64,000 nucleotides of DNA from Pontibacter ramchanderi (GTDB lineage Bacteria > Bacteroidota > Bacteroidia > Cytophagales > Hymenobacteraceae): NCBI RefSeq assembly GCF_002846395.1, contig NZ_PJMU01000002.1, positions 310,001-374,000 of the forward strand. Reading direction: 5' to 3'. The notes below the pieces were generated by a model. That model saw only the letters and a program-made list of their open reading frames with translations. It did no database searches and was not told the origin of the DNA. Below, one piece after another: positions 1 to 64,000 of this stretch; the first letter of the stretch is position 1; the number at the start of each line of letters is the position of its first letter. A program made the translations under genes and the position numbers.

Positions 1-486
1 AGACTGGCAGCAGCTCTCTGGGACAGCGAGAGTAATTTCGAAGTCCTTCGTTTCAACCGCAGCACCGGTGAGGTGTCAGATCCGGTCTTGCTGAAGGGCT
101 ATGAAGAGGCTTATGGTGTGTGCTTTTCGCCGGATGGCACTAAGCTGTATGGCACCGCAAACGGCAAAGGAGGCGGTAAAGCACAGATCATTCAGTTCGA
201 CCTGCAGGCCGGCGACGAAGCGGCTATCGCTAAATCAGCGGTGGTAGTGGGCATGTCTGGCAGCCCGCGCATCGGGGCGATTCAACTCGGCCCGAATGGC
301 AAAATGTATGTGGCCCGCCAGGATAACATTCATTTGGGCGTGATCAACAACCCGAATGCCTTGGGCAAGGAAAGTGGCTATGTGGATACGGGCTTTCACC
401 TGGGTGGCCGCAAAAGCGACCTGGGCCTGCCAAACTTCCCGCAAGGTATACAGTCGGGTGCGGGCAGGTCTGCCAATGTAAGATAA
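1..486 (+). CDS. C-terminal part of a beta-propeller surface/secreted protein (5' end outside window)
   Basis: The frame is open from the first base, so the gene starts upstream of the window. The 161 visible residues carry propeller-blade motifs: YGVCFSPDGTKLY, then IGAIQLGPNGKMYVAR, then LGLPNFPQ. These resemble the WD40-like propellers of Bacteroidota proteins that usually continue into PKD and type IX secretion C-terminal domains (family knowledge). Here the protein ends about 12 residues after LPNFPQ, with no visible PKD or sorting domain, so it may be a short or truncated member. Function unknown, probably extracellular or periplasmic binding. A GTG at 73 is in frame but lies inside the conserved region and is unlikely to be the start. 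Confidence 0.75.
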   Translation, partial: RLAAALWDSESNFEVLRFNRSTGEVSDPVLLKGYEEAYGVCFSPDGTKLYGTANGKGGGKAQIIQFDLQAGDEAAIAKSAVVVGMSGSPRIGAIQLGPNGKMYVARQDNIHLGVINNPNALGKESGYVDTGFHLGGRKSDLGLPNFPQGIQSGAGRSANVR

Positions 487-507
487 GGTATAGAATTAAG
501 ATGTGAG

Positions 508-536
508 AGCCGGGCATTAGTGTCCGGCTTTTTTGT
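508..536 (+). terminator. Rho-independent terminator
   Basis: The stem AGCCGG (508-513) pairs with CCGGCT (524-529) and is followed by a T run. It closes the propeller gene transcript. Confidence 0.8.
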
Positions 537-572
537 TTCGGGTAAATAGCTGGCTCGGTAACGCATTAATTC

Positions 573-580
573 TAAATTTG
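573..580 (+). promoter_or_regulatory. -7 box of the meaB promoter
   Basis: TAAATTTG matches the Bacteroidota -7 consensus TAnnTTTG. It lies 36 bases upstream of the TTG start of meaB and supports that start. No clean -33 TTG is visible. Confidence 0.5.
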
Positions 581-616
581 TAAGGCAAATAATGTTATAC
601 CTAACGCTATACCGCC

Positions 617-1597
617 TTGGCAAAACGTTTCAGTGCTGATAAGTATGTAGAGGGCATTCTGGCAGGCGACCGTGTCATGCTGAGCCGTGCCATTACGCTG
701 GTGGAAAGCCGCCTGGCCTCTGACCTGGAACTGGCACAGGACGTCATCAACCAGGTGCTGCCACATGCTGGCAAATCGGTGCGGATAGGTATAACAGGGG
801 TGCCCGGTGTGGGCAAAAGCACATTTATCGAAGCCTTCGGCAACTACCTGATACAGGCGCAGGGCAAAAAGCTGGCCGTGCTGGCCATCGACCCCACTTC
901 ACAACGTACTGGAGGCAGCATACTCGGCGACAAAACGCGCATGGAGTCACTTTCTGTCAACCCACAGGCTTTTATTCGCCCCTCTCCTGCTGGCAAGTCG
1001 CTGGGCGGTGTCACCCGCAGCACCCGCGAATCGATCATTCTCTGCGAAGCGGCCGGTTTTGACGCCATCATTGTGGAAACGGTCGGAGTGGGCCAGTCTG
1101 AGACAGCGGTACATGCCATGGTCGACTTTTTCCTGCTGCTGATGCTGGCGGGTGCCGGCGACGAACTGCAAGGCATCAAACGCGGCATCATGGAGATGGC
1201 CGACGCCATTGCCATTACCAAGGCCGATGGTGAGAATGCCATGAAAGCCAAAGCCGCCCGTGCCGAGTACCAGAATGCGCTGCACTTATACCCTGTAGCC
1301 GCCTCGGGCTGGCTCCCAAAAGTCTCCGTCTGCTCCGCCATGGAACAAACCGGCCTCAACACCATCTGGGAAACAATAGCAAACTACCTGGCACTGACAC
1401 AGCAAAATGGATTCTTTGAGAAAAAGCGCCACGACCAAAACCTGCAGTGGATGTACGAAGCCATACGCCAAGGGCTGGAAGACAATTTCTATGCGCATCA
1501 GCAGGTAAAGGAACAATTGGCAGGTATAGCTGAGCAGGTGAAAGCAGGCAGGAAGTCAGCTTTCGCGGCCGCCGCGGAGTTGTTGAAGCTCGTATAA
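617..1597 (+). CDS. meaB: Methylmalonyl-CoA mutase-associated GTPase MeaB (ArgK family)
   Basis: A G3E-family P-loop GTPase that in known systems guards and reloads the B12 cofactor of methylmalonyl-CoA mutase. The Walker A motif GVPGVGKST is at residues 61-69, followed by AIDPTSQRTGGSILGDKTRM and the ETVGVGQSE switch region. The length (326 aa) is usual for the family. The start is TTG: the one ATG nearby (592) is in another frame, and the N-terminus RFSADKYVEGILAGDR aligns with family starts. No mutase subunit is adjacent, so its partner must be encoded elsewhere. Cytoplasmic; probably monocistronic, with its own promoter and converging on folB. Confidence 0.93.
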   Translation: MAKRFSADKYVEGILAGDRVMLSRAITLVESRLASDLELAQDVINQVLPHAGKSVRIGITGVPGVGKSTFIEAFGNYLIQAQGKKLAVLAIDPTSQRTGGSILGDKTRMESLSVNPQAFIRPSPAGKSLGGVTRSTRESIILCEAAGFDAIIVETVGVGQSETAVHAMVDFFLLLMLAGAGDELQGIKRGIMEMADAIAITKADGENAMKAKAARAEYQNALHLYPVAASGWLPKVSVCSAMEQTGLNTIWETIANYLALTQQNGFFEKKRHDQNLQWMYEAIRQGLEDNFYAHQQVKEQLAGIAEQVKAGRKSAFAAAAELLKLV

Positions 1598-2016: not shown

Positions 2017-2994
2017 CTAGCCTATCTCGTCGAAGAAAGAACCGGCAGGCTTCTGCTGGCGCTGCGCCCAGTCAGCCAGGCTGTTGCGCGAAGGCTCTGT
2101 CATCGGGGGCTGAATCTCTGGCTGATCCGGCTTTACAGGCTGAATTTCAGGTACCGGCTGCTCAATTTCAGGTGCAGGTATAGTACCCGGGTAATCTGGC
2201 TTTGGCTGCTCTATTTCCGGCGACGGCACATTTGGCACAGGCGTTACCGGGTTTGGAATTTCCGGATGGGGCTGCGTTACGTCCGGGGCCGGATCGCCAA
2301 GCGGCTCGTAGCCATTGCTGGCCATAACAGGTATAGCAGCTGCAGCAGTGGCCGTGGCCTCTGGCAGTTGTATTGTTCGGTTTGTTGTCGTTTCCATATC
2401 TTTCATGTTACGCAGCAGCTCGGGCTGTTCTACCCGAAGTTCGGCCGCTCTTGAAAGAATACTGGCAGTACTGGTTTTAGGTTTTGACTTTGTCTTTTCA
2501 GCTTTTTCCAGCGCCTCGTTGGCCAGGTTGCGCAAGTCGCGCACCATGCTCTCCAAGTACGACTCCATGCGCTGGTAGTCCTGCTCCAGCGCCTTCACCT
2601 CCTGCTGCATCTCGCTCACCATGCGCTCGGCCTGCTTTTGGCTGTCTTCGAGCACCATACGAGCTTGGTTGCGGGCCGTGCTCAACAACTGGTCGGCCTG
2701 CAGCTGCGCCTCACGTATCTTCAGCTCCGACGACTTGTTGGCCTGCTCCAGAATAGAGTTACCTGTGTCCTCGGCTGTTTTCAGCGTTTTGTACAATGAA
2801 GTTTCCACCTCTCGAAGCTTCTGCGTCTCGCGATGAGCTGCTTCCAGCTTGTTGCGCAGGTCTTTGTTCTCATCGAGCAGCTTTTCCCACTGCTGCGACA
2901 AAGTCAGCAAAAAAGCATTTACCTCGTCCTTGTCAAGCCCTCTGAATGCTTTCTCAAATGTTTTTTGTCTGATTTCTAAGGGTGTAATCTTCAT
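2017..2994 (-). CDS. DivIVA-domain coiled-coil protein
   Basis: The N-terminus MKITPLEIRQKTFEKAFRGLDKDEVNAFL is a DivIVA domain of the type that binds curved membrane in known members. It is followed by a long coiled coil (about residues 30-170), then a proline/glutamate/glutamine-rich low-complexity tail with PEIQ/PEIE/PDQ repeats. In the family it marks poles or division sites; here this is inferred. The ATG at 2994 is chosen because the domain begins there; an in-frame ATG 15 codons earlier (3039) lies inside the upstream WD40 gene. Only 4 bases separate it from the WD40 stop, so the two are translationally linked. Confidence 0.85.
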   Translation of the reverse strand: MKITPLEIRQKTFEKAFRGLDKDEVNAFLLTLSQQWEKLLDENKDLRNKLEAAHRETQKLREVETSLYKTLKTAEDTGNSILEQANKSSELKIREAQLQADQLLSTARNQARMVLEDSQKQAERMVSEMQQEVKALEQDYQRMESYLESMVRDLRNLANEALEKAEKTKSKPKTSTASILSRAAELRVEQPELLRNMKDMETTTNRTIQLPEATATAAAAIPVMASNGYEPLGDPAPDVTQPHPEIPNPVTPVPNVPSPEIEQPKPDYPGTIPAPEIEQPVPEIQPVKPDQPEIQPPMTEPSRNSLADWAQRQQKPAGSFFDEIG

Positions 2995-5264: not shown

Positions 5265-5282
5265 CGCTATACCTATACCTGC

Positions 5283-6303: not shown

Positions 6304-7932
6304 TTAGGTTTGAATAACGCCTACATTATAAGGTTTCTCAATCGGGGCGTGGTTGGCTGCCTCAATCCCCATCGAGATCACTTTGCGGGTCTCCAGCGGG
6401 TCGATGATGCCATCTATCCACAGGCGGGCGGCGGCATAGTAAGGCGATAGCTCTTCGTTATACTTGGCCGTGATACGCTCGAGTAATTCCTTCTCTGCTT
6501 CTGGCGTAATTTCCTCTCCTTTTGCTTTCAGGGCTGATACCTGAATCTGCAGCAGCGTGTTGGCCGCCGCCGCGCCGCTCATAACGGCCAGTTGTGCCGT
6601 TGGCCAGGCGTAGATCAGGCGTGGGTCGTAGGCTTTGCCACACATGGCGTAGTTGCCGGCACCGTAGCTGTTACCAATGATTACAGTGATTTTCGGCACC
6701 ACAGAGTTCGCCATGGCGTTCACCATTTTGGCACCGTCCTTTATAATGCCACCGTGCTCGGCTTTGCTGCCCACCATAAAACCCGACACATCGTGCAGGA
6801 ACACGAGCGGAATTTTCTTCTGGTTGCAGTTCATGATAAAGCGTGCCGCCTTGTCAGCTGAGTCGGAGTAAATTACGCCGCCCATTTGCATTTCGCCCTT
6901 TTTGCTCTTCACGATCTTACGCTGGTTGGCCACTATACCTACTGCCCAGCCATCAATGCGGGCAAGGCCACAGATCAGCGACTGGCCGTAGAGGTCTTTG
7001 TAAGGCTCAAACTCCGAGTTATCCACCAGACGGCTGATGATGTCCATCATGTCGTAGGGCTTGGTGCGGTCGGCTGGGAGCATGCCGTAAATTTCTTTCT
7101 CGTCCAGTTTCGGGGCAAGGGGCTCCACACGGCTGAATCCAGCTTTCGGATTATCTCCCATTTTATCAAAGATGGTGCGGATATGGTCCAGTGCCTCTTT
7201 GTCGTCTTTGCACTTATAATCGGTTACGCCGGAAATCTCGCAGTGTGTGGAAGCGCCACCTAAAGTCTCGTTGTCAATGCTCTCGCCGATGGCCGACTTC
7301 ACCAGGTAAGAGCCACCCAAAAACACAGAGCCCGTCCCCTCCACAATCAAAGCCTCGTCGCTCATGATCGGGAGGTAAGCGCCGCCGGCCACGCAACTGC
7401 CCATGATGGCGGCAATCTGCACAATGCCCATCGAACTCATGACGGCATTGTTGCGGAACATGCGGCCAAAGTGCTCTTTGTCCGGGAAAATCTCGTCCTG
7501 CATTGGCAGAAACACGCCGGCGCTGTCTACCAGGTATACGATCGGGAGTTTGTTCTCAATAGAGATTTCCTGGGCGCGCAGGTTCTTTTTGGCTGTGATC
7601 GGGAACCAGGCACCGGCTTTTACGGTGGCATCATTCGCTACGACCACACACTGACGGCCTTTGATGTAGCCTATACCTGTCACCACGCCGCCGCTTGGGC
7701 AGCCGCCAACTTCCTGGTACATGCCTTCGCCGGCAAAGGCGCCTACTTCCAGAAACTCAGAGCCTTCGTCGAGCAGGTAGGCGATGCGCTCGCGGGCGGT
7801 CATCTTGCCTTTCTCGTGCTCTTTGGCGATGCGCTTTTCGCCGCCACCCAGGTGTACTTTCTTCAGTTTGCTTTTCAGCTGGAAACTCAGCTGTTTGAGA
7901 GAGTCTTCGTTCTTATTGAATTCGATATCCAT
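6304..7932 (-). CDS. Acyl-CoA carboxylase carboxyltransferase (beta) subunit
   Basis: A 542-aa member of the biotin-dependent carboxyltransferase family, closest in pattern to methylcrotonyl-CoA carboxylase beta: GGACIP-like GGAYLPIMSDEALIVEGTGSVFLGGSYLVKSAIGE, then ETLGGASTHCEISG. The C-terminal half has the second crotonase fold with VSGFMVGSKAEHGGIIKDGAKMVNA and GNSYGAGNYAMCGKAYDPRLIYAWP. It moves CO2 from carboxybiotin to an acyl-CoA; the exact substrate is not certain from sequence. No biotin carboxylase or carrier subunit is adjacent, so the alpha subunit must be elsewhere. Single gene with its own promoter and a possible hairpin behind it. Confidence 0.9.
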   Translation of the reverse strand: MDIEFNKNEDSLKQLSFQLKSKLKKVHLGGGEKRIAKEHEKGKMTARERIAYLLDEGSEFLEVGAFAGEGMYQEVGGCPSGGVVTGIGYIKGRQCVVVANDATVKAGAWFPITAKKNLRAQEISIENKLPIVYLVDSAGVFLPMQDEIFPDKEHFGRMFRNNAVMSSMGIVQIAAIMGSCVAGGAYLPIMSDEALIVEGTGSVFLGGSYLVKSAIGESIDNETLGGASTHCEISGVTDYKCKDDKEALDHIRTIFDKMGDNPKAGFSRVEPLAPKLDEKEIYGMLPADRTKPYDMMDIISRLVDNSEFEPYKDLYGQSLICGLARIDGWAVGIVANQRKIVKSKKGEMQMGGVIYSDSADKAARFIMNCNQKKIPLVFLHDVSGFMVGSKAEHGGIIKDGAKMVNAMANSVVPKITVIIGNSYGAGNYAMCGKAYDPRLIYAWPTAQLAVMSGAAAANTLLQIQVSALKAKGEEITPEAEKELLERITAKYNEELSPYYAAARLWIDGIIDPLETRKVISMGIEAANHAPIEKPYNVGVIQT

Positions 7933-8022: not shown

Positions 8023-9078
8023 CTATTGCCTTTTTGTGGTATCGGCAGGCACTACCTTAACAGAGTCGGGCGCCGGACGGCGAAACTCGTCCGGGTTTTC
8101 GTCCTGCAGTTCTTTCACCTCCTCCAGCGTAATCACGCGGCCTGTGGCATCTACCTTATACTTGTCTTTGCGACCGATAAGGGAGAACTGCACATAGCGC
8201 TTCGGATAGGCCTGTATATCGCGCAACAGCAGGTTGAGCGCCTCTGTAGACCGGTTCATGTTACGGTACAGTTCCTCGTCGTTCATGAGTTTGCCCAGCG
8301 AGCCCTGGTTGGAGTTAAGCTTGGAGATGGTGGTTTCCAGCTCGTTCACAGCCGAGTTGGCGTCCCGCACCAGTTTGTTGATCTCTACCTGCTTCAGCGT
8401 GTCCGTTATCTCGGCCATATTTAGTGTCAGGCGGTCGATGTTGCGCTGCGTCTGTCTTAGTGCAGCAGTAAGCTGACTGAGATTGCCCGTGATCTGGTTG
8501 ATGTTGCGCTGGTTTTCGCGCAGGATGGCGTTGACCATTTCGGTCGTTCTGTTTGAGTTGGCCAGAATCGACTGGATGTTGTCTTTCGCCTCACTGTCCA
8601 GGAGTCTGTTTACACGAGCCAGTGTGGTGTCCACTTTGTCGATAACGGGAACCGATTTGGAAGACAGCATGTCGCCAATACTGGTCTCCTTGAAAGCGAT
8701 GAGCTCTTCGCCGCCTTTGTACTGTTTTCTGCTGTTGTTAAGGTGCAACGTAATGGCCTTGCTGCCCAAGAGGTCGGAGTTGCCGAGGCTGGCGATGGTG
8801 GAGTCTCCTACCTGCAGGTCTTTCCGAACTTCAATGTCCACACGTACCATGTTGGCGCGGTCGGTGAGCAGTTCCATATCCTTCACGTGGCCTACCTGTA
8901 TGCCATTCAGAAATACAGGATTTGAAATAGTGAGGCCATCTACGCTGTCGTATACTACATAATAAGTGTTGGATTTGGAGAAGAGCGAGGACCCTTTCAG
9001 GAATTCATACCCGAAATACAATATCACAACTGCCGCTATACCTAGCAGGGCAACTTTAATTTCCTTTGATATTTTCAC
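8023..9078 (-). CDS. MCE (MlaD) family lipid-transport protein
   Basis: A single membrane anchor (about residues 9-28) is followed by an MCE domain (about 37-115) with YDSVDGLTISNPVFLNGIQVGHV, then a long helical/coiled-coil region (150-265) and a polar tail. Family members bind lipids and form the periplasmic part of ABC lipid transporters between inner and outer membranes. No permease or ATPase lies beside it, so the partner genes are elsewhere. GTG start, 22 bases after the stop of the amidase gene: a two-gene envelope operon. Confidence 0.9.
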   Translation of the reverse strand: MKISKEIKVALLGIAAVVILYFGYEFLKGSSLFSKSNTYYVVYDSVDGLTISNPVFLNGIQVGHVKDMELLTDRANMVRVDIEVRKDLQVGDSTIASLGNSDLLGSKAITLHLNNSRKQYKGGEELIAFKETSIGDMLSSKSVPVIDKVDTTLARVNRLLDSEAKDNIQSILANSNRTTEMVNAILRENQRNINQITGNLSQLTAALRQTQRNIDRLTLNMAEITDTLKQVEINKLVRDANSAVNELETTISKLNSNQGSLGKLMNDEELYRNMNRSTEALNLLLRDIQAYPKRYVQFSLIGRKDKYKVDATGRVITLEEVKELQDENPDEFRRPAPDSVKVVPADTTKRQ

Positions 9079-9100: not shown

Positions 9101-9883
9101 TTAGTTCATGGCTTCAAGCTCCTGCTTGTATTCCTTGAAGGCACGATATATACCTGATGCCATATACGTCTGGCCGGTTTTATCGTTAAGGAATTTTTCT
9201 TCAGCAGGATTGGTCAGGAAGCCAGCCTCAATCAGCACGCTCGGCATGTAAGATTTCCAGAGTACCAGGAAGCCCGCCTGCTTTACGCCGCGGCTGGTAC
9301 GGCCAACGCGGGTTTTAAACTCATTTTCTACTTTCTGGGCAAAACGCAGGCTATTGTCGATGTAGGCGCTCTGGTGCAGCGCAAACATAATGTGGCTCTG
9401 CGGGGAGTTCGGGTCGAAGCCACCGTATTTTTCCTTGTAGTCGTCTTCCTGTAAAATAACGGCGTTCTCGCGCTTGGCTACGGCCAGGTTGTTGTTGGAG
9501 GTATGGAGCCCCATGGTATAGGTTTCAGTGCCGTATGCGGCAGGGGGGCCTGAGTTGAGGTGAATGGAGATGAACAGGTCTGCATTGTTCTTGTTGGCTA
9601 TACCTGCGCGGTCTATCAGCTCCACAAACGTATCGTCTTTGCGGGTGTAAACAACTTTTACGTCGGGCACGTTCTTCTCAATTAACGCACCAACCTGCAG
9701 GGCCAGCTTCAGGGCCACATCAGCCTCATGCGAAACTTTGCCGTTACAGCCTATGTCTTTGCCGCCATGACCTGCATCGATTACTACCGTCCGGAGCTTG
9801 TACGCCTTGCGGTATTCGAGCTTGCTGGAAGATAGTAAAAGTAAACTTAGGGCCAGAATTGAAATAGTAACAATATTTCTCAC
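9101..9883 (-). CDS. N-acetylmuramoyl-L-alanine amidase (Amidase_3)
   Basis: A zinc amidase that cuts the bond between MurNAc and the peptide stem. Zinc ligands are His39 in DAGHGGKD, Glu53 in SHEAD and His108 in SIHLN; the catalytic Glu lies in VLIEAGFLTN near residue 218. An N-terminal hydrophobic segment (residues 5-19) is a signal peptide or anchor, so it acts in the periplasm. Insert GFDPNSPQSHIMFALHQSAY is typical of Bacteroidota members. GTG start. First gene of a pair with the MCE protein, divergent from the LptD-like gene. Confidence 0.93.
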   Translation of the reverse strand: MRNIVTISILALSLLLLSSSKLEYRKAYKLRTVVIDAGHGGKDIGCNGKVSHEADVALKLALQVGALIEKNVPDVKVVYTRKDDTFVELIDRAGIANKNNADLFISIHLNSGPPAAYGTETYTMGLHTSNNNLAVAKRENAVILQEDDYKEKYGGFDPNSPQSHIMFALHQSAYIDNSLRFAQKVENEFKTRVGRTSRGVKQAGFLVLWKSYMPSVLIEAGFLTNPAEEKFLNDKTGQTYMASGIYRAFKEYKQELEAMN

Positions 9884-12751: not shown

Positions 12752-13570
12752 ATGTCTGTTCATAAAAGCGACGTAAAAAAAGTCACCACCCACCAGCTGC
12801 AGAATATGAAAGAGCGCGGCGAGAAGATCTCCATGCTCACGGCCTACGATTACTCGATGGCCACCATTCTGGACGCCGCCGGTGTGGACGTGCTGCTTGT
12901 CGGCGACTCTGCCTCTAACGTAATGGCTGGCCACGAAACAACACTACCCATCACGCTAGACCAGATGATCTACCATGCCTCTTCTGTGGTGCGTGGCGTA
13001 AACCGTGCTTTTGTGGTAGTCGATTTGCCGTTTGGCTCATACCAGGGCAATTCTTCGGAAGCGCTTCGCTCGACCATTCGCATCATGAAGGAATCGGGCG
13101 CGCACGGCATCAAGCTAGAAGGCGGTGCCGAGATAAAGGAATCGATTATCCGCATTCTGAGCGCCGGCGTACCGGTAATGGGTCACCTGGGCCTGACACC
13201 GCAGTCGATCTACAAGTTCGGTACCTATACCGTGCGCGCCAAAGAAGAGGCCGAGGCTCAGAAACTGATCGATGACGCTCTGCTGCTGCAGGAGCTGGGC
13301 TGCTTCTCGATCGTGCTGGAGAAGATCCCTTCGGAACTGGCCAAGCGCGTGGCCGAGAAGCTGGAAATTCCGATCATAGGTATAGGCGCAGGTCCGCATG
13401 TAGACGGGCAAGTGCTGGTAGTGCACGACATGCTGGGCATCAACAAAGAATTCAAACCCCGCTTTCTGCGTCGCTATGCCGATCTGCACACCATCATGAC
13501 CGATGCGGTGCAGAACTACGTGAAGGACGTAAAGAGCAAAGACTTCCCGAACGAGAAAGAAGCGTATTAA
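12752..13570 (+). CDS. panB: 3-methyl-2-oxobutanoate hydroxymethyltransferase
   Basis: First step of pantothenate synthesis: adds a hydroxymethyl group from methylene-THF to ketoisovalerate, giving ketopantoate. 272 aa, family length. Conserved stretches include [66 protein letters not shown] and [15 protein letters not shown]. The metal-binding Asp of VGDS and Glu of LEGG are visible. The start [10 protein letters not shown] is preferred over an upstream in-frame codon because a promoter box falls between them. A 16-bp stretch spanning its stop codon is duplicated directly downstream. Confidence 0.95.
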
Positions 13571-13730
13571 TTTTAGAGCGTATTAATTTTAGTTAAGAGT
13601 TATGAGTTTAAAGTTAAGCGTGAAAGGTATGCGCAGGTATAGCGAGCACCTTTAGGCTTGGCGCTTATTTCAACTGCAATGCTACCCACTTTTTGATTCT
13701 AGATTTTTAACTCTTAACTTTTAACTCTTA
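13561..13730. repeat. Tandem duplication and inverted-repeat module after panB
   Basis: AGCGTATTAATTTTAG occurs twice in tandem (13561-13576 and 13577-13592); the first copy includes the panB stop. A left arm of TTAAGAGTTA-type sequence (13592-13618) is matched by an inverted arm at 13707-13730. No gene lies between. The layout matches other intergenic modules of this window but with its own arm motif. Confidence 0.65.
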
Positions 13731-14475: not shown

Positions 14476-14549
14476 CAGAAGGCAACGTGTCTGCCTAAAC
14501 CAAGCCTATACCTGAACAAGAATTTAAACACTTTACACACGACCCGTTA

Positions 14550-15357: not shown

Positions 15358-15524
15358 GCGGCTGCAGGTGTAGCGGTACACAAGCTTATTTCAGGTTGCC
15401 CAAATTGCCAGCAAATGATAGGCAGGTATAGTCGCTGGTATAGCCTACACTCAAAGGAGCGTTGTCTGCTATGGCGCTAAGCATTATACCTGGTGGCACC
15501 TCACGAATCAATTCCCAAAATATC

Positions 15525-48876: not shown

Positions 48877-49014
48877 CGCCAATGCAGCAAGACTTGAAAG
48901 TAAACAAGGGGCAGGTATAGGCCGGCTCCCTCTTTCACGGAAAAGAACAAAAAAATTTTTCTTCTTAGCGGCAGGAGCGTTAGTTTAGCACTTCTTTTAG
49001 CCACGCATACCTGT

Positions 49015-51847: not shown

Positions 51848-51963
51848 TTATTTACGCTCAGGTATAGCATCTTCATTCAGGTATAGCGCTACAGCCAAAA
51901 GCGCTTCTTATCTGACATTAAGGTAAAGTCAGCAATCATTCGCCGGATCCGCGGCGGGCTTAC

Positions 51964-52127
51964 TTATCCACAGTAAAAAATTTCTATAAAATAACTTCGT
52001 TCTAGGTTTTAGAATGCGGGGTAATTTGCGTTATTTTTGCAAGTGTATCCCTATATAGGGAACGTTCTATACCTGAATGAGTTATCCACAGCTGTTTCAA
52101 CATATACTGTAGCTCTTTTGTGGATAG
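51964..52127. other. Cluster of DnaA-box-like sites (candidate origin or DnaA-controlled region)
   Basis: In the 336-base gap between the O-methyltransferase and LysM genes, TTATCCACA occurs exactly at 51964-51972 and 52082-52090, and TGTGGATAG (one mismatch, other strand) at 52119-52127. Between them lie an AT-rich stretch (51973-52000), a perfect palindrome TCCCTATATAGGGA (52048-52061) and a -7-like box TATTTTTG (52032-52039). Two octamer copies lie before (about 51861, 51880) and one inside (about 52066). One chance TTATCCACA is expected per about 130 kb on both strands. Confidence 0.5.
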
Positions 52128-54958: not shown

Positions 54959-56287
54959 TTACCTTTTCCCCGGAGGAGCAGTCAGTTTCGTGGCGGTGCG
55001 AAGCCCGGTGGCGATTTCGGGAAGAATACCCAGGCGCTCGTAGATGGGCTGCACCATCAGGCGAAGGCGCTTCAGGTTCCAGGCAAACGGAATGACGCTG
55101 ACGGCACAGAGGAATCCGCAACCCAGTAAGGTATAGGCTACCCCGATCTGCTCGGCCACTGAGCTTGCCAGAATGCTGCCCAGCGGGGCCATACCCATAA
55201 AGGCAGTCGCATACAAACTCATCACGCGCCCCCGCTTGTCATCGTCCACCAGCGTTTGCAGCAGCGTGTTGCACGATGCCATCGTCACGATCATGCCAAA
55301 GCCGGTGAACAGCATCAGCACCAGTGAGAGCCATAGAATCGTAGAGAAGGAGAAGGCAATCAGGGCCGTGCCAAACAGCGCCATCGTAAACACGATCACC
55401 TTGCCAAGACCGAGCACCGACTTTCGCTGGGCCAAAAACAGAGCACCCGACAAAGCCCCCAGTCCGGAGGCACCCATCAGGTAGCCGAGCGTGTTCGCAC
55501 CGCCATGCAGTATGTCGCGGGCAAACACCGGCAGCATCACGCTAAAGGGCATACCAAATAAGCTGATCAGGCCAACAATTAAAATAAGCGTACGGATGGG
55601 TGGAAAGCCGAAAGCATAGGTAAAACCCTGCCTGAGAGAGCTCCACATATTTTCCTGTCGTTTTTCCCGCACAAAGGGATTGAGCCGCAGCGTCAGGAGT
55701 GAGGCCAGCACTGCCAGGTAGCTCACCGCATTGATCAGGATGCAGACACCCTCCCCTACCCAGGCAATCAGCACACCCGCCACCGAAGGACCGACCAGAC
55801 GAGCCATGTTGAACATCGAGGAGTTGAGCGCAATGGCATTACTAACATCCTCACGCTTGTCTACCAATTGCACTACAAAGGCCTGTCGGGTAGCCACATC
55901 GAAGGCGTTGATGGTGCCGAGCACCACCATCAGCGTCATCACGTGCCATACCTGCACCGTGCCCGTTAGCACCAGCGTAGCCAGGGTACCTGCCTGCAGC
56001 ATCGACAGGAATTGTGTAACCAGGAGCACATGGTGGCGATTGAACTTATCGGCCAGCACGCCGGCAAAAGGGCCCAGCAAAAAGGAAGGAATCTGGTTGG
56101 CAAACGTAACGGCTCCCAACAGGAACACCGAATCCGTAAGGCGGTAGACCAGCCAGCTGATGGCGATCTGCTGCATCCAGGTACCGATCAGCGAAACACC
56201 CTGCCCCATGAAAAATATCCGGTAATTGCGCGAGCGCAACGCCCGGAACATTCCCCCTATCTTTCCTGAATCTTCTGTTTCTGCCAT
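54959..56287 (-). CDS. MFS transporter (EntS/MFS_3 type)
   Basis: 442 aa with about 12 membrane segments. MFS signature LADKFNRHHVLL between helices 2 and 3; opening pattern FRALRSRNYRIFFMGQGVSLIGTWMQQIAISWLVYRLTDS and FDVATRQAFVVQLV are typical of the enterobactin-exporter subgroup. Transports an unknown small molecule, probably outward. The C-terminus after the last helix is basic. Leftward single gene; no linked regulator or biosynthetic genes. Confidence 0.9.
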   Translation of the reverse strand: MAETEDSGKIGGMFRALRSRNYRIFFMGQGVSLIGTWMQQIAISWLVYRLTDSVFLLGAVTFANQIPSFLLGPFAGVLADKFNRHHVLLVTQFLSMLQAGTLATLVLTGTVQVWHVMTLMVVLGTINAFDVATRQAFVVQLVDKREDVSNAIALNSSMFNMARLVGPSVAGVLIAWVGEGVCILINAVSYLAVLASLLTLRLNPFVREKRQENMWSSLRQGFTYAFGFPPIRTLILIVGLISLFGMPFSVMLPVFARDILHGGANTLGYLMGASGLGALSGALFLAQRKSVLGLGKVIVFTMALFGTALIAFSFSTILWLSLVLMLFTGFGMIVTMASCNTLLQTLVDDDKRGRVMSLYATAFMGMAPLGSILASSVAEQIGVAYTLLGCGFLCAVSVIPFAWNLKRLRLMVQPIYERLGILPEIATGLRTATKLTAPPGKR

Positions 56288-56576
56288 GCTGTTCCTTCTT
56301 GCTATACCTGTCTGGGCACAGGCTTTATCTTACGGTGGGGCTTGCTTTTCAGGTTGTAATTATACGCTTTATTTAAGAACGGTCGCAATCAATTTACTGC
56401 TTACAAAAGGGATGAATACCTTCTGTTTTTTGTTTTAGCCCGGGGCGGTATTTCTTTTGGGCAGCCGCCCGATTTTCCGTAATTTTAACATCCCGAAAAT
56501 GCCGCCTGGTATAGGAGATAGCATACCTGCGTGTCATTATTAATTAATCATTCGTCATTACTAATTCAATATAGTT

Positions 56577-59500
56577 TTGCCAGTTTTCTCTCATTTACAC
56601 ACCCATACCCAGTACTCGCTGCTCGACGGTCAGGCCAGTATCAGTGCGCTCATGAAAAAGGCGCAGGCCGATGGCATGCCCGCCGTTGCCATGACCGACC
56701 ACGGCAACATGTTCGCCGCCTTCAACTTTGTGAACGAGGCAAACAAGTATAACGTGAAGCCGATCGTGGGCTGTGAGTTTTACCTGGTGGCCGACCGTCA
56801 TCAGAAAACCTTCAGCAAAGAGCAGAAAGACAACCGCTACCACCAGCTGCTGCTCGCCAAAGACCAGGAAGGCTACCAGAACCTGGCCAAGCTCTGCTCC
56901 ATGTCCTACATCGAGGGGATGTACAGCAAGTGGCCGCGCATCGACAAAGAGCTGCTGCTCCAGTATAGCAAAGGCCTGATCGCGACTAGCTGCTGCATTG
57001 GCGCAGAGGTACCGCAGGCGATCCTGTGGAAAAGCGAAGAAGAAGCCGAAGAGATATTCAAGTGGTGGCTCGATGTGTTCGGTGAAGACTACTACATCGA
57101 GATTCAGCGCCACGGCCTCATGAACATTGACGGCACCGGCAAAAGCCAGGAAGATATCAACCAGGTGCTGCTGAAGTGGGCGAAAAAGTATAATGTGAAG
57201 GTGATCTGCACCAACGACTCCCACTACGTGGACCAGGAAGACTGGAACGCGCACGACATCCTGCTGTGCGTGAACACCGGCGAAGACCAGAGTACCCCGG
57301 TGGGCGATTTTGCCACGAAGTACTACCGCTTCCTGAGCGATGACCAGAAGGTGATCTACGACACGGTGGAGAACGTGCGCAGCAAGTATAGCAACCACAT
57401 GAACGTGCGCCAGATGCTGCAGCGCATCGACGAAGCTGGTCCGAAGACACGTTTTGGTTTCCCAAACGACCAGTTCTACTTTAAGACGCAGGCCGAAATG
57501 AACGAACTGTTCAAGGACGTGCCGGAAGCCGTGGACAATACCAACGAGATTGTTGACAAGATCACGCCACCGAAGCTGAAGCGCGACATCCTGCTACCGA
57601 ACTTCCCTATACCTCCGGAACATGCCGATGCCGACGATTTACTGCGTCACCTGACCTACGAAGGTGCCAAAAAGCGCTACTCCGAAATTACACCGGAAGT
57701 GACTGAGCGCCTCGACTTTGAGCTGCACGTAATCAAGACCATGGGCTTTGCCGGTTACTTTTTGATCGTGCAGGACTTCATTAACCGTGGCCGTGACATG
57801 GGTGTGTTCGTGGGGCCGGGCCGTGGTTCAGCTGCCGGATCGGCGGTCGCTTACTGTATCGGTATCACCAATATCGACCCGATCAGGTATAACCTCCTAT
57901 TCGAACGATTCCTGAACCCGGAACGTGTATCGATGCCCGATATTGACATCGACTTTGATGACGTAAACCGCCAGCGCGTGATCGACTATGTGGTGGACAA
58001 GTATGGCAAAACGCAGGTAGCCCAGATTATTACCTTTGGTACCATGGCGGCCAAATCGTCCATCAAAGACGTGGCCCGCGCCACTTCGCTACCGCTTTCC
58101 GAAGCCAACGAACTGGCCAAGATGGTACCGGAAACACCAGGTACCACGCTGGCCAAGGCCTTTATGGAAAACCTGGAACTGGCCGCTATACGCGAAGGAG
58201 AGGACGCCCGTGCTGCAGTGCTCAAGCTGGCCGAAAAGCTGGAAGGCTCGGTGCGCAACACAGGTATACACGCTGCGGGCGTAATTATTGCTCCGGACGA
58301 CATCACGAACTACATCCCTGTTTCGACTTCGAAAGACGCGGACCTGCTTGTAACGCAGTTCGATGGCAAGGTGATCGAGAGTGCCGGTATGCTGAAGATG
58401 GACTTTCTGGGTCTGAAGACCCTGACCATCATCAAAGACGCGATGGAGCTTATCAAGAAAAACCATGGCGTAGAGATCGACATCGACAACATTCCGATAG
58501 ACGACGAGAAAACCTACGAACTCTACCAGCGCGGCGACACGATCGGCACGTTCCAGTTCGAGTCGGAAGGTATGCGCATGTACCTCAAGGACCTACAGCC
58601 GACCAACATCGAAGACCTGATCGCCATGAACGCCCTTTACCGTCCGGGCCCGATGCAGTTCATTCCGAACTTCATCAACCGCAAGCACGGCAAAGAGGAA
58701 GTAGAATACCCGCACGAGCTGCTGGAGCCGATCCTAAATTACTCGTACGGGATCATGGTATACCAGGAGCAGATCATGCAGACGGCCCAGATCCTGGCCG
58801 GTTACTCACTCGGTGGCGCCGACTTGCTGCGCCGCGCCATGGGTAAGAAGGACATGAAGAAGATGGCCGAGGAACGAGAGAAGTTCATTGCCGGCGCTGC
58901 AGAAATGCACAAGATCCCGGCTAAGAAAGCTTCGGAGGTGTTCGACGTGATGGAGAAGTTCGCCCAGTACGGCTTCAACCGCTCCCACTCCGCCGCTTAC
59001 TCCGTGGTAGCCTACCAGACTGGTTACCTCAAGGCCCACTACCCTGCCGAGTACATGGCGGCAGTGCTCACCAACAACATGAACGACATCAAAAAGGTGA
59101 CGTTCTTTATTGAAGAAGCCCGCAAACAAGGTGTGGCTGTGTTGGGTCCGGACGTGAACGAATCGTTGCTCAAGTTCAATGTGAACGAGCAAGGGCAGAT
59201 CCGTTTCGGTCTGGCCGCTATCAAAGGTACTGGTGAGGCTGCCGTAGACGCAATCATTTCGGAAAGAGAGAAGAACGGCCCTTACCAGGACATTTTCGAT
59301 TTCGCGAAGCGCATTAACCTGCGCGCCGTGAACAAGAAGACCTTCGAAAGCATGGCTTTGGCCGGAGCCTTCGACTCGTGGGGACTGTACCACCGCGCCC
59401 AGCTGATGGAAGTGCCGGAAGGCGAGAACATCAGTTTGCTGGAGAAGGCGGTTCGTTACGGTAACAACTACCAGGCCGAGCAACAGGCGGCACAACAGTC

Positions 59501-60200
59501 GCTGTTCGGGGGCAGTGCCGCAGTGGCCTCTCCGCTACCGAAGATACCCGAGGTACAGGTATGGACGCAGGCCGAAATGCTGCGCCGTGAGAAAGAAGTG
59601 GTAGGTTTCTACATCTCAGGCCACCCGCTCGACCAGTTCAAGATGGAGATCGACTCCTACTGTACCTCCGCCCTGGCCGATATTTCCAACCACAAGAACA
59701 AAGACATTAACGTGGCAGGTATGGTATCGGAAGTGGTGATTCGCACGGCCAAGAACGGTAACCCCTTTGCGCTGTTCTCGATCGAAGACTATGACACCAC
59801 CCTGCAAATGGCGCTGTTCGGGGAGGACTACATGAAGTTCCAGCCCTATCTGCGCCAAGGGCTATACCTGTTCATCCGGGGCAAGGTGCAGCTGCGCTAT
59901 AAAACCGAAGACCAGTGGGAGCTCAAGCCTACCAATATCCAGCTGCTCGGCGACGTGATGGACAAAATGGCGCAGGGTGTACAGCTGAACGTGAACTTAC
60001 AATTGCTTACCCCTAATGTAGCTGAAGCCCTGGAAGAGGCCATCATGACCAGCCCGGGCCAGAAGCGGCTGGAGATTACCCTGCATGTGCCAGACGAAAA
60101 GCTGGTGCTTCCGACTTACTCCCGCAAGTACCGTGTTGACCCGAAAGTGTTTTTAGGCCAGATCAAGGATTTGGGCTTGGGTGAGTGTAAGCTTCTTTGA
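56577..60200 (+). CDS. dnaE: DNA polymerase III alpha subunit
   Basis: 1207 aa, the replicative polymerase. N-terminal PHP domain (FSHLHTHTQYSLLDGQASISALMKKA, MTDHGNMFA, CTNDSHYV); C-family polymerase core with GPGRGSAAGSAVAYCIGITNIDP and the catalytic aspartates in MPDIDIDFDD (about residues 454-463); GIHAAGVII; then helix-hairpin-helix and OB-fold (INVAGMVSEVVIRTAKNGNPFALFSIED) regions. No intein. The start is TTG at 56577, at once followed by the conserved VFSHLHTHT, so no later start is possible. Monocistronic, with a hairpin at 60260. Confidence 0.96.
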   Translation: MPVFSHLHTHTQYSLLDGQASISALMKKAQADGMPAVAMTDHGNMFAAFNFVNEANKYNVKPIVGCEFYLVADRHQKTFSKEQKDNRYHQLLLAKDQEGYQNLAKLCSMSYIEGMYSKWPRIDKELLLQYSKGLIATSCCIGAEVPQAILWKSEEEAEEIFKWWLDVFGEDYYIEIQRHGLMNIDGTGKSQEDINQVLLKWAKKYNVKVICTNDSHYVDQEDWNAHDILLCVNTGEDQSTPVGDFATKYYRFLSDDQKVIYDTVENVRSKYSNHMNVRQMLQRIDEAGPKTRFGFPNDQFYFKTQAEMNELFKDVPEAVDNTNEIVDKITPPKLKRDILLPNFPIPPEHADADDLLRHLTYEGAKKRYSEITPEVTERLDFELHVIKTMGFAGYFLIVQDFINRGRDMGVFVGPGRGSAAGSAVAYCIGITNIDPIRYNLLFERFLNPERVSMPDIDIDFDDVNRQRVIDYVVDKYGKTQVAQIITFGTMAAKSSIKDVARATSLPLSEANELAKMVPETPGTTLAKAFMENLELAAIREGEDARAAVLKLAEKLEGSVRNTGIHAAGVIIAPDDITNYIPVSTSKDADLLVTQFDGKVIESAGMLKMDFLGLKTLTIIKDAMELIKKNHGVEIDIDNIPIDDEKTYELYQRGDTIGTFQFESEGMRMYLKDLQPTNIEDLIAMNALYRPGPMQFIPNFINRKHGKEEVEYPHELLEPILNYSYGIMVYQEQIMQTAQILAGYSLGGADLLRRAMGKKDMKKMAEEREKFIAGAAEMHKIPAKKASEVFDVMEKFAQYGFNRSHSAAYSVVAYQTGYLKAHYPAEYMAAVLTNNMNDIKKVTFFIEEARKQGVAVLGPDVNESLLKFNVNEQGQIRFGLAAIKGTGEAAVDAIISEREKNGPYQDIFDFAKRINLRAVNKKTFESMALAGAFDSWGLYHRAQLMEVPEGENISLLEKAVRYGNNYQAEQQAAQQSLFGGSAAVASPLPKIPEVQVWTQAEMLRREKEVVGFYISGHPLDQFKMEIDSYCTSALADISNHKNKDINVAGMVSEVVIRTAKNGNPFALFSIEDYDTTLQMALFGEDYMKFQPYLRQGLYLFIRGKVQLRYKTEDQWELKPTNIQLLGDVMDKMAQGVQLNVNLQLLTPNVAEALEEAIMTSPGQKRLEITLHVPDEKLVLPTYSRKYRVDPKVFLGQIKDLGLGECKLL

Positions 60201-60236: not shown

Positions 60237-60259
60237 TGTTTCTGTCTCTTCAGGTATAG

Positions 60260-61256: not shown

Positions 61257-61583
61257 ATGGCTAACAAAGCATTAGAAATCACTGACGCTAATTTTGATGA
61301 GATCATCAATTCAGATAAACCTGTACTGGTAGACTTTTGGGCAGAGTGGTGCGGCCCTTGCCGCATGGTAGGCCCGATCGTGGAAGAGCTGGCTGGCGAG
61401 TACGAAGGCAAAGCCGTGATCGGCAAAGTTGACGTAGATGCCAACCCACAGACTTCTGCCAAGTTCGGTATCCGTAGCATCCCAACACTGCTGGTTTTCA
61501 AAAACGGACAAGTAGTAGATAAGCAGGTAGGCGCTGTGCCTAAAAACGTACTGGCTGGTAAGCTGGACGCGCAGATGGCCTAA
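61257..61583 (+). CDS. trxA: Thioredoxin
   Basis: 108 aa. Active site WCGPC at residues 31-35 within [66 protein letters not shown] with cis-Pro. Cytoplasmic general disulfide reductase. Codon use is biased toward frequent codons, as in abundant proteins. Regulated upstream region with a possible operator; strong terminator after it. Confidence 0.97.
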
Positions 61584-61600
61584 GCCCCTTTGTCAATTAT

Positions 61601-61642
61601 AAACGCAAAAGCCCCTCCTGTTCAGGAGGGGCTTTTGCGTTT
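61601..61642. terminator. Bidirectional terminator, 20-bp perfect stem
   Basis: 61601-61620 pairs perfectly with 61623-61642 (core AAAGCCCCTCCTG). It overlaps the stop codon of the DUF421 gene (61641-61643). Confidence 0.93.
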
Positions 61643-62138
61643 ATGCGTCTTTCTTCACGATGCTGATCTCCCCGCTCCGCTCCAGATAAGCTGCCTTCAC
61701 GTCTTTTACGGTGGTGACGCCGCCATTCCGCAGGGCTTCGTTCAGATCGTTCTCAGTTAGATTATGCTTCTTAAGTTCATCCTCCTGAAGTTTCCCGTCC
61801 CTGATCAAACAAACAGGGCTCCCCTTGATGAAAGGCCCTATAAAGCCCTCGGTATTATAAGCTAGAAAAGCCAGAAATCGGTGTAACAGCACCAAGACAA
61901 GAGCGGCGGCCAGCGTAGGCCAGAAAGGAGAGTTGCCGGTAATGGCACGGCTCAGGATAGAGCCATAGATAATTCCCAGCACGATATCAAAGGCAGTTTG
62001 CTTGCCAAAGATGCGTTTGTTCCCGATCCGCATGATAACCAGGGCGACAATGAACACCAGCACCGCCCGGATAGACATCTGCCACCACGTAAGCGAATCA
62101 GAATCTATCCCTAAGAGTGTATTCACAAAGTCAGCCAT
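61641..62138 (-). CDS. DUF421 (YetF-like) membrane protein
   Basis: 165 aa. Three membrane segments (about 22-40, 50-66 and 73-95) then a soluble DUF421 domain: FIKGSPVCLIRDGKLQEDELKKHNLTENDLNEALRNGGVTTVKDVKAAYLERSGEISIVKK. The motif GKLxxxxLxxxxLTxxDLxxALRxxG is the family hallmark. YetF relatives occur in many bacteria; roles in stress or spore membranes have been proposed for some. Stop codon lies in the trxA terminator. Confidence 0.9.
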   Translation of the reverse strand: MADFVNTLLGIDSDSLTWWQMSIRAVLVFIVALVIMRIGNKRIFGKQTAFDIVLGIIYGSILSRAITGNSPFWPTLAAALVLVLLHRFLAFLAYNTEGFIGPFIKGSPVCLIRDGKLQEDELKKHNLTENDLNEALRNGGVTTVKDVKAAYLERSGEISIVKKDA

Positions 62139-62179
62139 ACAGTCCCAACGGGGAAAATCGTGGGAATGTTATCGGCCTG

Positions 62180-64000
62180 TTACTGGCACTCGCAGAGCTT
62201 CTTGTCTAGTTCGCAAAGTATGGCATAGTGCTGTTCTACTTCCTTCATTAAGCCTGTCAGCTGCTTGTTATAAGCCTGCACCTGTTGCAGGCGCGGGTTC
62301 TCGGGTGCATTTTTAGCGAGCGTGTCCAGTTCTTTTATTGTAGCTGCAAACGCGCTGCTTCTCTCACCCAGCTTGGCGTAGTACTGGTCCATGCCATTGT
62401 CCGCACTAGCCACGGCAACGGCCTGCAGGTTGTTGTCGAAGCACAGCTGCCAGCGCAGGTGGCGCAGCACTTGCTGCTCGGCGGCGCTTTGCAGTTTGCC
62501 CATCTCCTTTGTCTCTTCTTTCAGCCTGGAGTTTTCAAGGCGCTTGTTATACTCGTTCACGGCATCCCGCACCTTGTCGCGGCAGCTCAGGCAGTTGCTT
62601 GCGTTGGCCTTGTCCTGCAGGGCATTTCGCATCGACAGGGTCTCATCAGAGGCTTGTGCATCAGTGAGTGTCTTTACTTCCTTCTCAAACACTTCGCGGT
62701 ACTGCAGGTCTTCCAATCGTTTGGTCAGGCGCACGATGGCCTCCCCTTCTACCGAAGCAGATAGGTAATCGGCACGGGGCAACTCTACCGACGACAGCTT
62801 GGCCAGGGCAGCTTCGCGCTTGGCAGGTGTGTCCCAGGCCTTTGGATTGTTCTCAAGTTCCTGCAGCGTGTTCACCAGCACCTTGGCGTTTTTCAGGTTA
62901 TGGTCGGCATCCAGGTATAGGTCGGCATTGGCCAGTATCGAGGTATACTCCGGGCGGAAGATGTTCTTATAGGTAGAGTTCTTGTCAAACTCCTTCTCCC
63001 GTGCCTCGAAGGCCGTTTTGAGTCGCTTGTACTCCTGCATGATGCCGAACAGATTCTTAGCGTTAACCTCCGGGGAATTGTTGCGGTAATTGAGTCGATA
63101 GGCGTTCAGGTTCTGCTTCATCTCGGCAAAGATGCGCAGAAACTCCACGTACAGCTTCTCCTGGCGGTAAGTCTCGTCGTTCATCAGCTTCGTGTCGTAG
63201 GCCGTCTGGATCTTCTGCTTGCGCTTCTCGATCAGGTCCATGGTCACTTCATCGCCGGTCAGCACATCCACTTTGTAGAGCGACTTGTAGTTGGCCACCA
63301 CAATGTAGGGGTACTCTTTATACCCAATGGCTTCTTCTATTTGTTTGCGGTCCAGCTTGTTCGAGTTCTTGCTCAGGTAGTCGGCTAGTTTGGCTGGCTT
63401 TAGCGTAACAGTTTTCACGCTGCCTGGCACAAACACGTATACCTTCACCGAGTGCAGACGCGTATCGAAATCCTGCCCCTCGTACAGGCGGATGGTCGAG
63501 CTGAACTTATACTCTTTCTTTTTGGCGCGTGAGTTCAGCAGATTACCAAACTCCCCCACCAGCGACATCACCGCTACCGACGGGTTCGTCAGGTTTGAAA
63601 GGCTCACCAACTGGCTGGCTACCAGGTTAAACACCTGATCACCGTCCTGATTCGTGACTGCCTTGGCATTAATAGACGCGTCGATGCTGTTCTGTGCAGA
63701 AGTCAGCGGCATTTTGTCGATGATGCGCACCACTTCCAGGTGGTCGCTTACCTGGGTATGGTACTCCTTTTTATCAGTGTTGATGTGGAAATTGAAGAGT
63801 GGGTAAACGATCTGGTCGTTACCGAAGAGCTTCAGGTTTTTGAGCTGTGCCGTGATGAACAGATACTCCAGTTCGTAGGCGTAATTCTTCTTGCTTTTCT
63901 TCTTCACCCCCGACTCCAGCTCGTTGAGCACACGGTTAAACTGGCCACCATTATAGAGGTAGATGTCGGTAGTGAGGTACTGCCACTCGTCCGAAAAATT
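62180..64000 (-). CDS. Large unknown protein, 5' end outside window
   Basis: At least 606 residues; the frame is open to the window edge (the GTG at 63931 is internal, since upstream codons read NFSDEWQYLTTDIYLYNGGQFNR). A beta-rich first part (QLKNLKLFGNDQIVYPLFNFHINTDKKEYH) is followed by a long, mostly helical, charged region with many Lys/Glu/Asn and short coiled coils. A Cys pair CLSC lies in ANASNCLSCRDKVRDAVNEYNKRL and Cys residues recur at the end (LCELDKKLCECQ). I recognise no family. Faces left; no partner seen in the window. Confidence 0.78.
   Translation of the reverse strand, partial: NFSDEWQYLTTDIYLYNGGQFNRVLNELESGVKKKSKKNYAYELEYLFITAQLKNLKLFGNDQIVYPLFNFHINTDKKEYHTQVSDHLEVVRIIDKMPLTSAQNSIDASINAKAVTNQDGDQVFNLVASQLVSLSNLTNPSVAVMSLVGEFGNLLNSRAKKKEYKFSSTIRLYEGQDFDTRLHSVKVYVFVPGSVKTVTLKPAKLADYLSKNSNKLDRKQIEEAIGYKEYPYIVVANYKSLYKVDVLTGDEVTMDLIEKRKQKIQTAYDTKLMNDETYRQEKLYVEFLRIFAEMKQNLNAYRLNYRNNSPEVNAKNLFGIMQEYKRLKTAFEAREKEFDKNSTYKNIFRPEYTSILANADLYLDADHNLKNAKVLVNTLQELENNPKAWDTPAKREAALAKLSSVELPRADYLSASVEGEAIVRLTKRLEDLQYREVFEKEVKTLTDAQASDETLSMRNALQDKANASNCLSCRDKVRDAVNEYNKRLENSRLKEETKEMGKLQSAAEQQVLRHLRWQLCFDNNLQAVAVASADNGMDQYYAKLGERSSAFAATIKELDTLAKNAPENPRLQQVQAYNKQLTGLMKEVEQHYAILCELDKKLCECQ

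Follow-up and report, generated by a model that had tools for sequence, protein, structure and literature searches.

The DNA analysed here, called the window, is a stretch of 64,000 nucleotides from Pontibacter ramchanderi (assembly GCF_002846395.1, contig NZ_PJMU01000002.1, positions 310,001 to 374,000), in which genes for a carboxyltransferase, an M24 peptidase, DNA polymerase III alpha and other proteins are interspersed with copies of one octamer, AGGTATAG (CTATACCT on the opposite strand). A preliminary description of the window had reported at least 65 copies, lying on both strands and both inside and between genes. We counted 68 (26 + 42; Table 1), against 5.3 expected under a third-order Markov model. 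The octamer tops the 8-mers of the window by enrichment z, and the most enriched 10-mer, CAGGTATAGC, was observed 27 times against 0.78 expected, which confirms the excess noted in the preliminary description. The whole genome holding the window (G000; 4,427,107 bases) contains 4434 copies (2198 + 2236), about 1.0 per kb, against 92 copies (47 + 45) of a control word with reversed letters. In 376 kb of this genome, comprising the window and 16 sampled stretches, 369 copies were found and 30.8 expected; since the Markov expectations include the motif's own fragments, they are conservative.

The octamer in the P. ramchanderi genome

With genes taken as the longest non-overlapping open reading frames (ORFs), which makes the split between coding and intergenic DNA approximate, the density in G000 is 2.2 per kb between genes and 0.83 per kb within them, in line with the placement described earlier. 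Among intergenic spaces, it decreases from 3.46 per kb in convergent through co-directional to 1.11 per kb in divergent ones. The 298 ORFs of the window and the 16 stretches contain 267 copies, 96 in sense and 171 in antisense orientation, and the frame counts are 14 (s0), 2 (s1), 80 (s2), 56 (a0), 54 (a1) and 61 (a2). The claim that the word is read in every frame therefore holds in effect for five of the six; the s1 frame is almost empty because it reads xAG GTA TAG, a stop. When synonymous codons were shuffled within genes (60 shuffles), a mean of 15.3 copies remained (sd 3.6, maximum 22) in place of the 267. As such, codon or dipeptide use, which the preliminary description had named as the explanation that could undo its claim, fails to account for the excess.

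The information content in G000 covers the octamer plus about one to two bases per side, with C at -1 in 53-60% and C at +1 in 52-55% of copies. A copied repeat would have conserved flanks, and none extend beyond about two bases here. Considering this together with the Markov and reversed-word controls and the synonymous shuffling, an origin of the word by chance, from base composition or codon use, or as dispersed repeats of one family, for which no supporting point was found, has a negligible probability. The word has a core of about ten bases (cAGGTATAGc in G000) and is kept near one copy per kb by a word-recognising force. Even spacing was rejected, as the coefficient of variation of the distances is 1.15. 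Besides AGGTATAG, five copies of ACAACCAACAAT spaced 14 bases apart lie at 26657-26724 of the window, with another at 42492 and an inverted one at 26541.

Table 1. Position, strand and context of each copy of AGGTATAG in the window
Position	Strand	Context
486..493	+	intergenic/ORF end
1522..1529	+	ORF, sense
2176..2183	+	ORF, antisense
2329..2336	+	ORF, antisense
5267..5274	-	ORF, sense
5273..5280	-	ORF, sense; overlaps copy 5267..5274
6933..6940	-	carboxyltransferase gene, sense
7671..7678	-	carboxyltransferase gene, sense
9036..9043	-	MlaD gene, sense
9598..9605	-	ORF, sense
13378..13385	+	ORF, sense
13635..13642	+	intergenic
14035..14042	-	ORF, antisense
14506..14513	-	intergenic
15424..15431	+	intergenic
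16420..16427	-	ORF, antisense
17431..17438	+	intergenic
18041..18048	-	intergenic
18077..18084	-	ORF, antisense
18120..18127	-	ORF, antisense
18690..18697	+	intergenic/ORF end
18752..18759	-	intergenic
22264..22271	-	transglycosylase/transpeptidase gene, sense
23839..23846	-	transglycosylase/transpeptidase gene, sense
24115..24122	+	transglycosylase/transpeptidase gene, antisense
25262..25269	+	ORF, sense
25873..25880	-	ORF, antisense
26462..26469	-	ORF, antisense
26744..26751	-	ORF, antisense
26850..26857	-	ORF, antisense
27076..27083	-	ORF, antisense
27381..27388	+	ORF, sense
27421..27428	-	ORF, antisense
27765..27772	-	ORF, antisense
31608..31615	-	ORF, antisense
32628..32635	+	ORF, antisense
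34184..34191	-	TIG/Kelch gene, antisense
34371..34378	-	TIG/Kelch gene, antisense
36802..36809	+	intergenic
36810..36817	-	intergenic; abuts copy 36802..36809 in inverted order
36867..36874	-	intergenic
36923..36930	-	glycosyltransferase-9 gene, sense
37215..37222	-	glycosyltransferase-9 gene, sense
40338..40345	-	intergenic
41161..41168	-	ORF, antisense
41200..41207	-	ORF, antisense
41351..41358	-	ORF, antisense
42413..42420	-	intergenic
44030..44037	-	ORF, antisense
44083..44090	+	intergenic
44165..44172	+	intergenic
44194..44201	+	intergenic
44233..44240	+	intergenic
46485..46492	-	M24 peptidase gene, sense
47343..47350	-	M24 peptidase gene, sense
47676..47683	+	intergenic
48913..48920	+	intergenic
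51860..51867	+	intergenic
51879..51886	+	intergenic
52067..52074	-	intergenic
53663..53670	+	SLT/LysM gene, sense
54390..54397	-	SLT/LysM gene, antisense
55129..55136	+	MFS gene, antisense
56302..56309	-	intergenic
57607..57614	-	DNA pol III alpha gene, antisense
59862..59869	-	DNA pol III alpha gene, antisense
60252..60259	+	intergenic
62913..62920	+	ORF, antisense

Dialects and site evolution in Pontibacter

A search with DNA polymerase X (polX) yielded 31 titled Pontibacter loci (L001-L031) of 19-22 kb, some of them from uncultured Pontibacter. AGGTATAG is the top octamer in ten of these loci, which belong to P. ramchanderi's group (AGG dialect), and AACTATAG in four (L013, L014, L018 and L019; AAC dialect), while AAGTATAA or the one-base-shifted AAAGTATA leads in 14 (AAG dialect). 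One locus, L012, is mixed, with AACTATAA on top and AAGTATAA close behind, and two are motif-less, those of P. ummariensis (L021) and P. silvestris (L031). The dialects share the degenerate motif A[A/G][G/C]TATA[A/G] (ARSTATAR). P. lucknowensis is an example of a motif-rich species with the AGG dialect and P. mucosus of one with the AAG dialect. In a midpoint-rooted tree of 14 genes, on which ancestral states were reconstructed under a one-rate model, the AGG group including the window forms one clade and the AAC group another, with L012 as sister to the latter. Members of Pontibacter thus carry dialects of one motif, clade by clade. AGGTATAG and AAGTATAA are non-palindromic; part of the AAC-dialect copies are palindromic, with 113 copies of AACTATAGTT in 400 kb of the single-contig genome G030, and this palindrome consists of two AAC-dialect words overlapping head to head. 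Further repeated words are TCGAAATGACAA and GACAGGTCGCGA in the G030 stretches and ACCGCGACGA and ACGGTTGCCC in the AAG-dialect loci. On the P. akesuensis chromosome (L197-L199), AAGTATGG (22 vs 2.5 expected) nearly matches AAGTATAA (27 vs 3.4) and is perhaps a further dialect.

Across 50 genomes of the genus, ARSTATAR occurs at 3.5 times or more its reversed control in 40, at 1.4-2.9 times in seven and at 1.25 times or less in three (G025, G027 and G069); its density reaches 3.65 per kb in G030. Among 110 sampled genomes from five other genera of the family, it stands at 0.4-1.4 times the control, so the sister genera are without a clear excess. When ten genomes with a weak motif or none were inspected in samples of 20-60 kb, the word family lay outside the five most enriched octamers in all except G002, where CAACTATA was the most enriched (8 vs 1.0); in a further 40 kb of G002, the family was not among the top three. 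The search returned 49 polX loci from outside Pontibacter, of which L032-L040 were examined, and L036, from a Microscillaceae metagenome-assembled genome, has GATAATCA and GATTATCA enriched about tenfold within 15 kb, which may reflect either a different iterated word or a repeat restricted to this locus.

The strongest evolutionary result is that sites were re-spelled in place. Among 109 distinct coding positions of AGGTATAG in 56 aligned genes, 15 read AAGTATAA in AAG-dialect species, where 0.09 are expected at random and permuted word pairs gave 12 of 752 (Fisher p 6.5e-8); six positions are unchanged as AGGTATAG in some AAG species. The test had been widened to 56 genes because an initial count of 300 re-spelled sites in 1481 comparisons repeated the same positions across related species; a recount by distinct position in the polX region gave 6 of 24.

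Comparison with related genomes, also proposed in the preliminary description, showed that the words are retained above anagram controls. Within the AGG clade, the word is kept at its aligned place in 722 of 997 comparisons, against 178 of 761 for anagrams, although these comparisons are not independent. Based on ancestral states on the tree, 24 of 298 sites were lost in the AGG clade (anagrams 21 of 82), 10 of 65 in the AAC clade (3 of 6) and 55 of 492 in AAG lineages (32 of 74). Gains amount to 28 of 940 in AAG lineages (anagrams 24 of 2604), through eight different position-and-base changes, and to 6 of 125 in the AAC clade (4 of 418). At the two motif-less tips of the tree, P. ummariensis has lost 11 of 11 reconstructed ancestral sites and P. 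silvestris 13 of 15, about as fast as the anagram controls there (4 of 5 lost), so the sites decay like unprotected DNA. Genes are more divergent within 60 bases of a site than elsewhere (0.243 vs 0.203; 95% interval of the difference 0.011-0.069), while the words themselves, at 0.199, lie below their flanks and about equal to the rest of the genes. Together with the synonymous shuffling, the losses, gains and in-place re-spelling bear out the earlier view that the pressure acts on the DNA rather than on the protein.

Strand, plasmids and candidate genes

The preliminary description had also likened the word to replication-polarity motifs. In G030, the genome allowing a test, replication switch points were set by the sign of the GC skew in 20 stretches, and AACTATAG showed no leading-strand preference (344 leading vs 311 lagging, p 0.21; 231 vs 198 without palindromes, p 0.12), so replication polarity was rejected for this genome. 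For G000, orientation was compared with the strand bearing most of the genes in each stretch; 135 copies agree with it and 166 oppose it (p 0.08). Around polX, by contrast with G030 as a whole, copies lean toward the polX strand in all ten AGG loci L001-L010 (172 vs 51) and in the AAG loci together (317 vs 163); these sites are largely shared by descent. A Chi-like recombination hotspot of the RecBCD/AddAB type would be consistent with this local lean, as well as with a non-palindromic octamer at high copy number. However, known Chi sites favour the leading strand, which is not the case in G030, and we know of no Chi that changes dialect within one genus or is lost in some of its species; we therefore consider a Chi-like site very improbable.

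One sampled stretch from the second contig of each of G020, G001 and G019 gave a 100% match, which identifies these contigs as plasmids of P. kalidii, P. akesuensis and P. actiniarum, respectively. The P. kalidii plasmid (59 of 74 kb sampled) carries 18 sites, or 0.31 per kb, compared with 124 in 80 kb of chromosome (1.55 per kb), and the P. akesuensis plasmid (60 of 116 kb sampled) 14 sites, or 0.23 per kb, compared with 59 in 60 kb (0.98 per kb). In 60 kb of the P. actiniarum plasmid there are 37 sites, against 62 in 60 kb of its chromosome. The reversed controls for the samples of all three plasmids and their chromosomes lie at 0.12-0.28 per kb. Depletion in foreign DNA, as expected of uptake sequences, is thus seen on few samples, with two plasmids at control level and a third mixed. 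A 20-kb stretch of G030 (L110; contig 1, 700-720 kb) is likewise poor, with one AACTATAG and with 16 ARSTATAR where the reversed control has 11, while the adjoining stretches are unremarkable; it encodes SusD-like, ABC-transporter, M16 peptidase, GmrSD (restriction-type) and PLD proteins, and appears to be a recent, island-like arrival.

Low density on most sampled plasmid DNA could also be understood if the copies were bound by a protein that organises, segregates or repairs the chromosome, with a specificity drifting between clades; plasmids would have no need of it. The chromosome-wide distribution on both strands, the intergenic excess and the lean around polX are compatible with such a protein. 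On the other hand, no replication polarity was found in the sampled G030 stretches and the spacing is uneven. Nor would several species be expected to dispense with a protein required to maintain the chromosome and to let nearly all of its sites decay. A chromosome-binding protein fits these losses poorly and seems unlikely to us.

Turning to genes, ComEC and DprA have matches in all 50 genomes. An ORF of 304-346 aa with a helix-hairpin-helix (HHH) domain, ComEA-like in G000 (318 aa), occurs in 49 and is in pieces in G021. The ComEC and DprA frames are broken by stops in G009 and G021, in the latter along with the HHH gene, which may be sequencing error or recent loss. In the neighbourhoods of comEC, dprA and the ComEA-like gene, inspected in some genomes, one gene alone separates motif-rich from motif-poor, an alpha/beta-hydrolase gene beside the ComEA-like gene in the motif-rich G000, G003, G014, G020, G022 and G030 and the weak G064. 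It is not in the stretches of G069, G025, G027, G068, G023, G024 and G036, nor in that of the motif-rich G031, and is not plausible as a reader of the word. No tested gene (ComEC, DprA, HHH, DUF5689, three methyltransferase families and the comEC and HHH neighbours) tracks the motif.

The three methyltransferase families were PF01555, in 31 of 50 genomes but absent from motif-rich G030, G032, G060 and G066; PF07669, in 47 including partial matches, with all three motif-less genomes among them and motif-rich G021 lacking it; and PF02086, in 13, G000 not included. Their presence does not track the motif, and these three families lend no support to the methyltransferase site suggested earlier, although an enzyme of another family may recognise the word. 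Restriction-modification sites are generally avoided or neutral in genomes, and an origin of the word as such a site was rejected on the strong genome excess and on these three families.

The strongest rival is the methylation ratchet that Elhai put forward for HIP1, a highly iterated palindrome (HIP) of cyanobacteria, in which the mark of a solitary methyltransferase on the word lets methyl-directed mismatch repair turn near-misses into it. HIP words are described as occurring at about one per kb, with alternate words in some genomes and near absence in others, and with matching methyltransferases (PMC4390886). The Pontibacter word resembles them in density, alternates and absences, and its most enriched near-misses differ mostly at or near the octamer edges. 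Yet the word is non-palindromic, only part of the AAC-dialect copies being palindromic, and no matching methyltransferase emerged from the three families. Moreover, the 3.65 per kb of ARSTATAR in G030 exceeds the model's saturation at about 1 per kb, and sites are gained by many kinds of substitution. Weakened by word anatomy, site evolution and the machinery survey, the ratchet is in our judgement improbable, about as much so as the chromosome-binding protein.

A proposed uptake-sequence-like self-tag

The data show a word-specific force on DNA whose specificity changes, which is seen in one genus, is weak on most sampled plasmid DNA and has been lost in separate lineages. Based on the analyses above, we favour, with moderate confidence, reading the word as a self-tag like a DNA uptake sequence (DUS) and the force as uptake bias in natural transformation. 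Of the analogies drawn already in the preliminary description, this one gives the best fit to the density, both strands, permissive sites, low density on most sampled plasmid DNA and dialects, while uptake itself is what we infer from them. A DNA reader at the cell surface or in the periplasm would favour DNA pieces that contain the word, and when such pieces from relatives recombined with the chromosome, they would bring the word along and repair damaged copies by molecular drive, so that the genome would become its own label. Drift in the specificity of the reader would re-spell sites, partly in place, and produce dialects, and its loss would leave them to decay, as we would expect.

The likeness to DUS of Neisseriaceae is considerable. 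These are non-palindromic words of 10-12 bases, and Pontibacter likewise has thousands of copies (4434 in 4.43 Mb), within one to a few per kb. DUS are reported to form clade-wise dialects, with two at once in Simonsiella muelleri and none in some genomes of the wider family (PMC3630211); Pontibacter has clade-consistent dialects of one core, a mixed L012 and sampled sister genera without a clear excess. In Neisseria, DUS are described as stringently conserved within permissive core DNA, rare in regions that were gained or lost, and bordered by more divergent flanks (PMC2397512), and the loss rates and flank divergence in Pontibacter show words conserved beyond their surroundings in permissive regions. 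The word and the phylum are different, however, and no full type IV pilus ATPase domain was found, pilins and secretins lying outside the search. Therefore, we do not class the word as a DUS of the Neisseria/Pasteurella type or expect a ComP-type receptor. DUS often form terminator pairs, whereas head-to-head pairs are few in G000 (7 convergent within 60 bases among 369 copies). Pasteurellaceae uptake signal sequences, like the Pontibacter word, lie on both strands at a density of about one per kb; they have AT-rich flanking segments, which were not seen around the Pontibacter word.

Since no full pilus-type ATPase domain was found, the reader would belong to the pilus-independent transformation route of Bacteroidota, not to the ComP/type IV pilin route. 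Transformation of Riemerella is reported to depend on an HHH protein, predicted to be periplasmic, as well as on ComEC and DprA; that study detected no pilus homologs and proposes a new outer-membrane DNA-import machinery for pilus-less Bacteroidota (PMC8459023). All three proteins have counterparts in Pontibacter. R. columbina is described as preferring its own DNA, and the k-mer table of the same report holds A-rich or A/T-rich words only for Riemerella and F. johnsoniae, unlike the Pontibacter word (PMC7965970). More tentatively, and at a little less than even likelihood, we propose that Pontibacter has a pilus-independent, sequence-specific DNA-uptake system with a previously undescribed type of DNA reader, whose specificity has drifted into at least three dialects and which was lost more than once within the genus. 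To our knowledge, such a system would be the first uptake-sequence system of Bacteroidota. No earlier report of the word was found in open-licence PubMed Central, judged by titles and abstract beginnings among the matches listed, and no text there combines Pontibacter with two or more of the five dialect words. Among the matches listed, those for CTATACCT concern unrelated subjects and those for uptake sequences in Bacteroidetes or Bacteroidota include none relevant, by title; for a Pontibacter methylome, only work on other subjects appeared by title.

Several observations weigh against uptake. Other readers acting across the whole chromosome would likewise produce re-spelling, decay and depletion on plasmids, and uptake does not predict the strand lean around polX. 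On the P. actiniarum plasmid, 27 of the 37 sites fall in one 20-kb stretch (L192, 20001-40000), which carries a methylase gene adjoining a ResIII gene, probably a type III restriction-modification pair; this motif-rich stretch on an otherwise motif-poor plasmid sample is perhaps chromosomal DNA. Among the three stretches of the P. akesuensis chromosome, one contains just seven sites. The AGG clade shows no excess of gains (8 of 760 vs anagrams 12 of 1350), and AAC positions coincide with no AGG and one AAG position, so most of this change of dialect either happened at other positions or took place too long ago to be visible. Regarding machinery, none of the 50 genomes yielded a full domain of PF00437, the ATPase family shared by type IV pili, type II secretion and VirB11. 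Its matches are short, covering no more than 66 of 370 positions and scoring no more than 25.9 bits, and three genomes including G000 are just above the 24.9-bit cut-off. The three motif-less genomes retain ComEC, DprA and the HHH protein, which thus do not explain the loss of the motif. DUF5689 (PF18942), a putative surface DNA binder of Riemerella, was rejected as reader, being present in 22 of 50 genomes, absent from G000 and not tracking the motif; in six neighbourhoods fetched, a long ORF of about 1080 aa lies close by, possibly a SusC-type protein judging by size and place alone. Finally, open-licence PubMed Central yielded, by title, only work on other subjects for Pontibacter and natural transformation, and no experiment showing transformability.

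If the word is not an uptake signal, then a DNA reader of a new kind, acting across the chromosome, still awaits discovery. The dialects give a handle on the reader: its specificity has to be for AGGTATAG in one clade but for AAGTATAA in another, and in P. ummariensis and P. silvestris the reader is expected to be absent or defective. For pilus-less Bacteroidota, a word with dialects likewise offers a handle on how DNA passes the outer membrane, and it may perhaps provide a practical rule for making DNA acceptable to Pontibacter. With three dialects, a mixed genome and losses, the genus is a dense natural series for studying how a genome-wide word is re-spelled.

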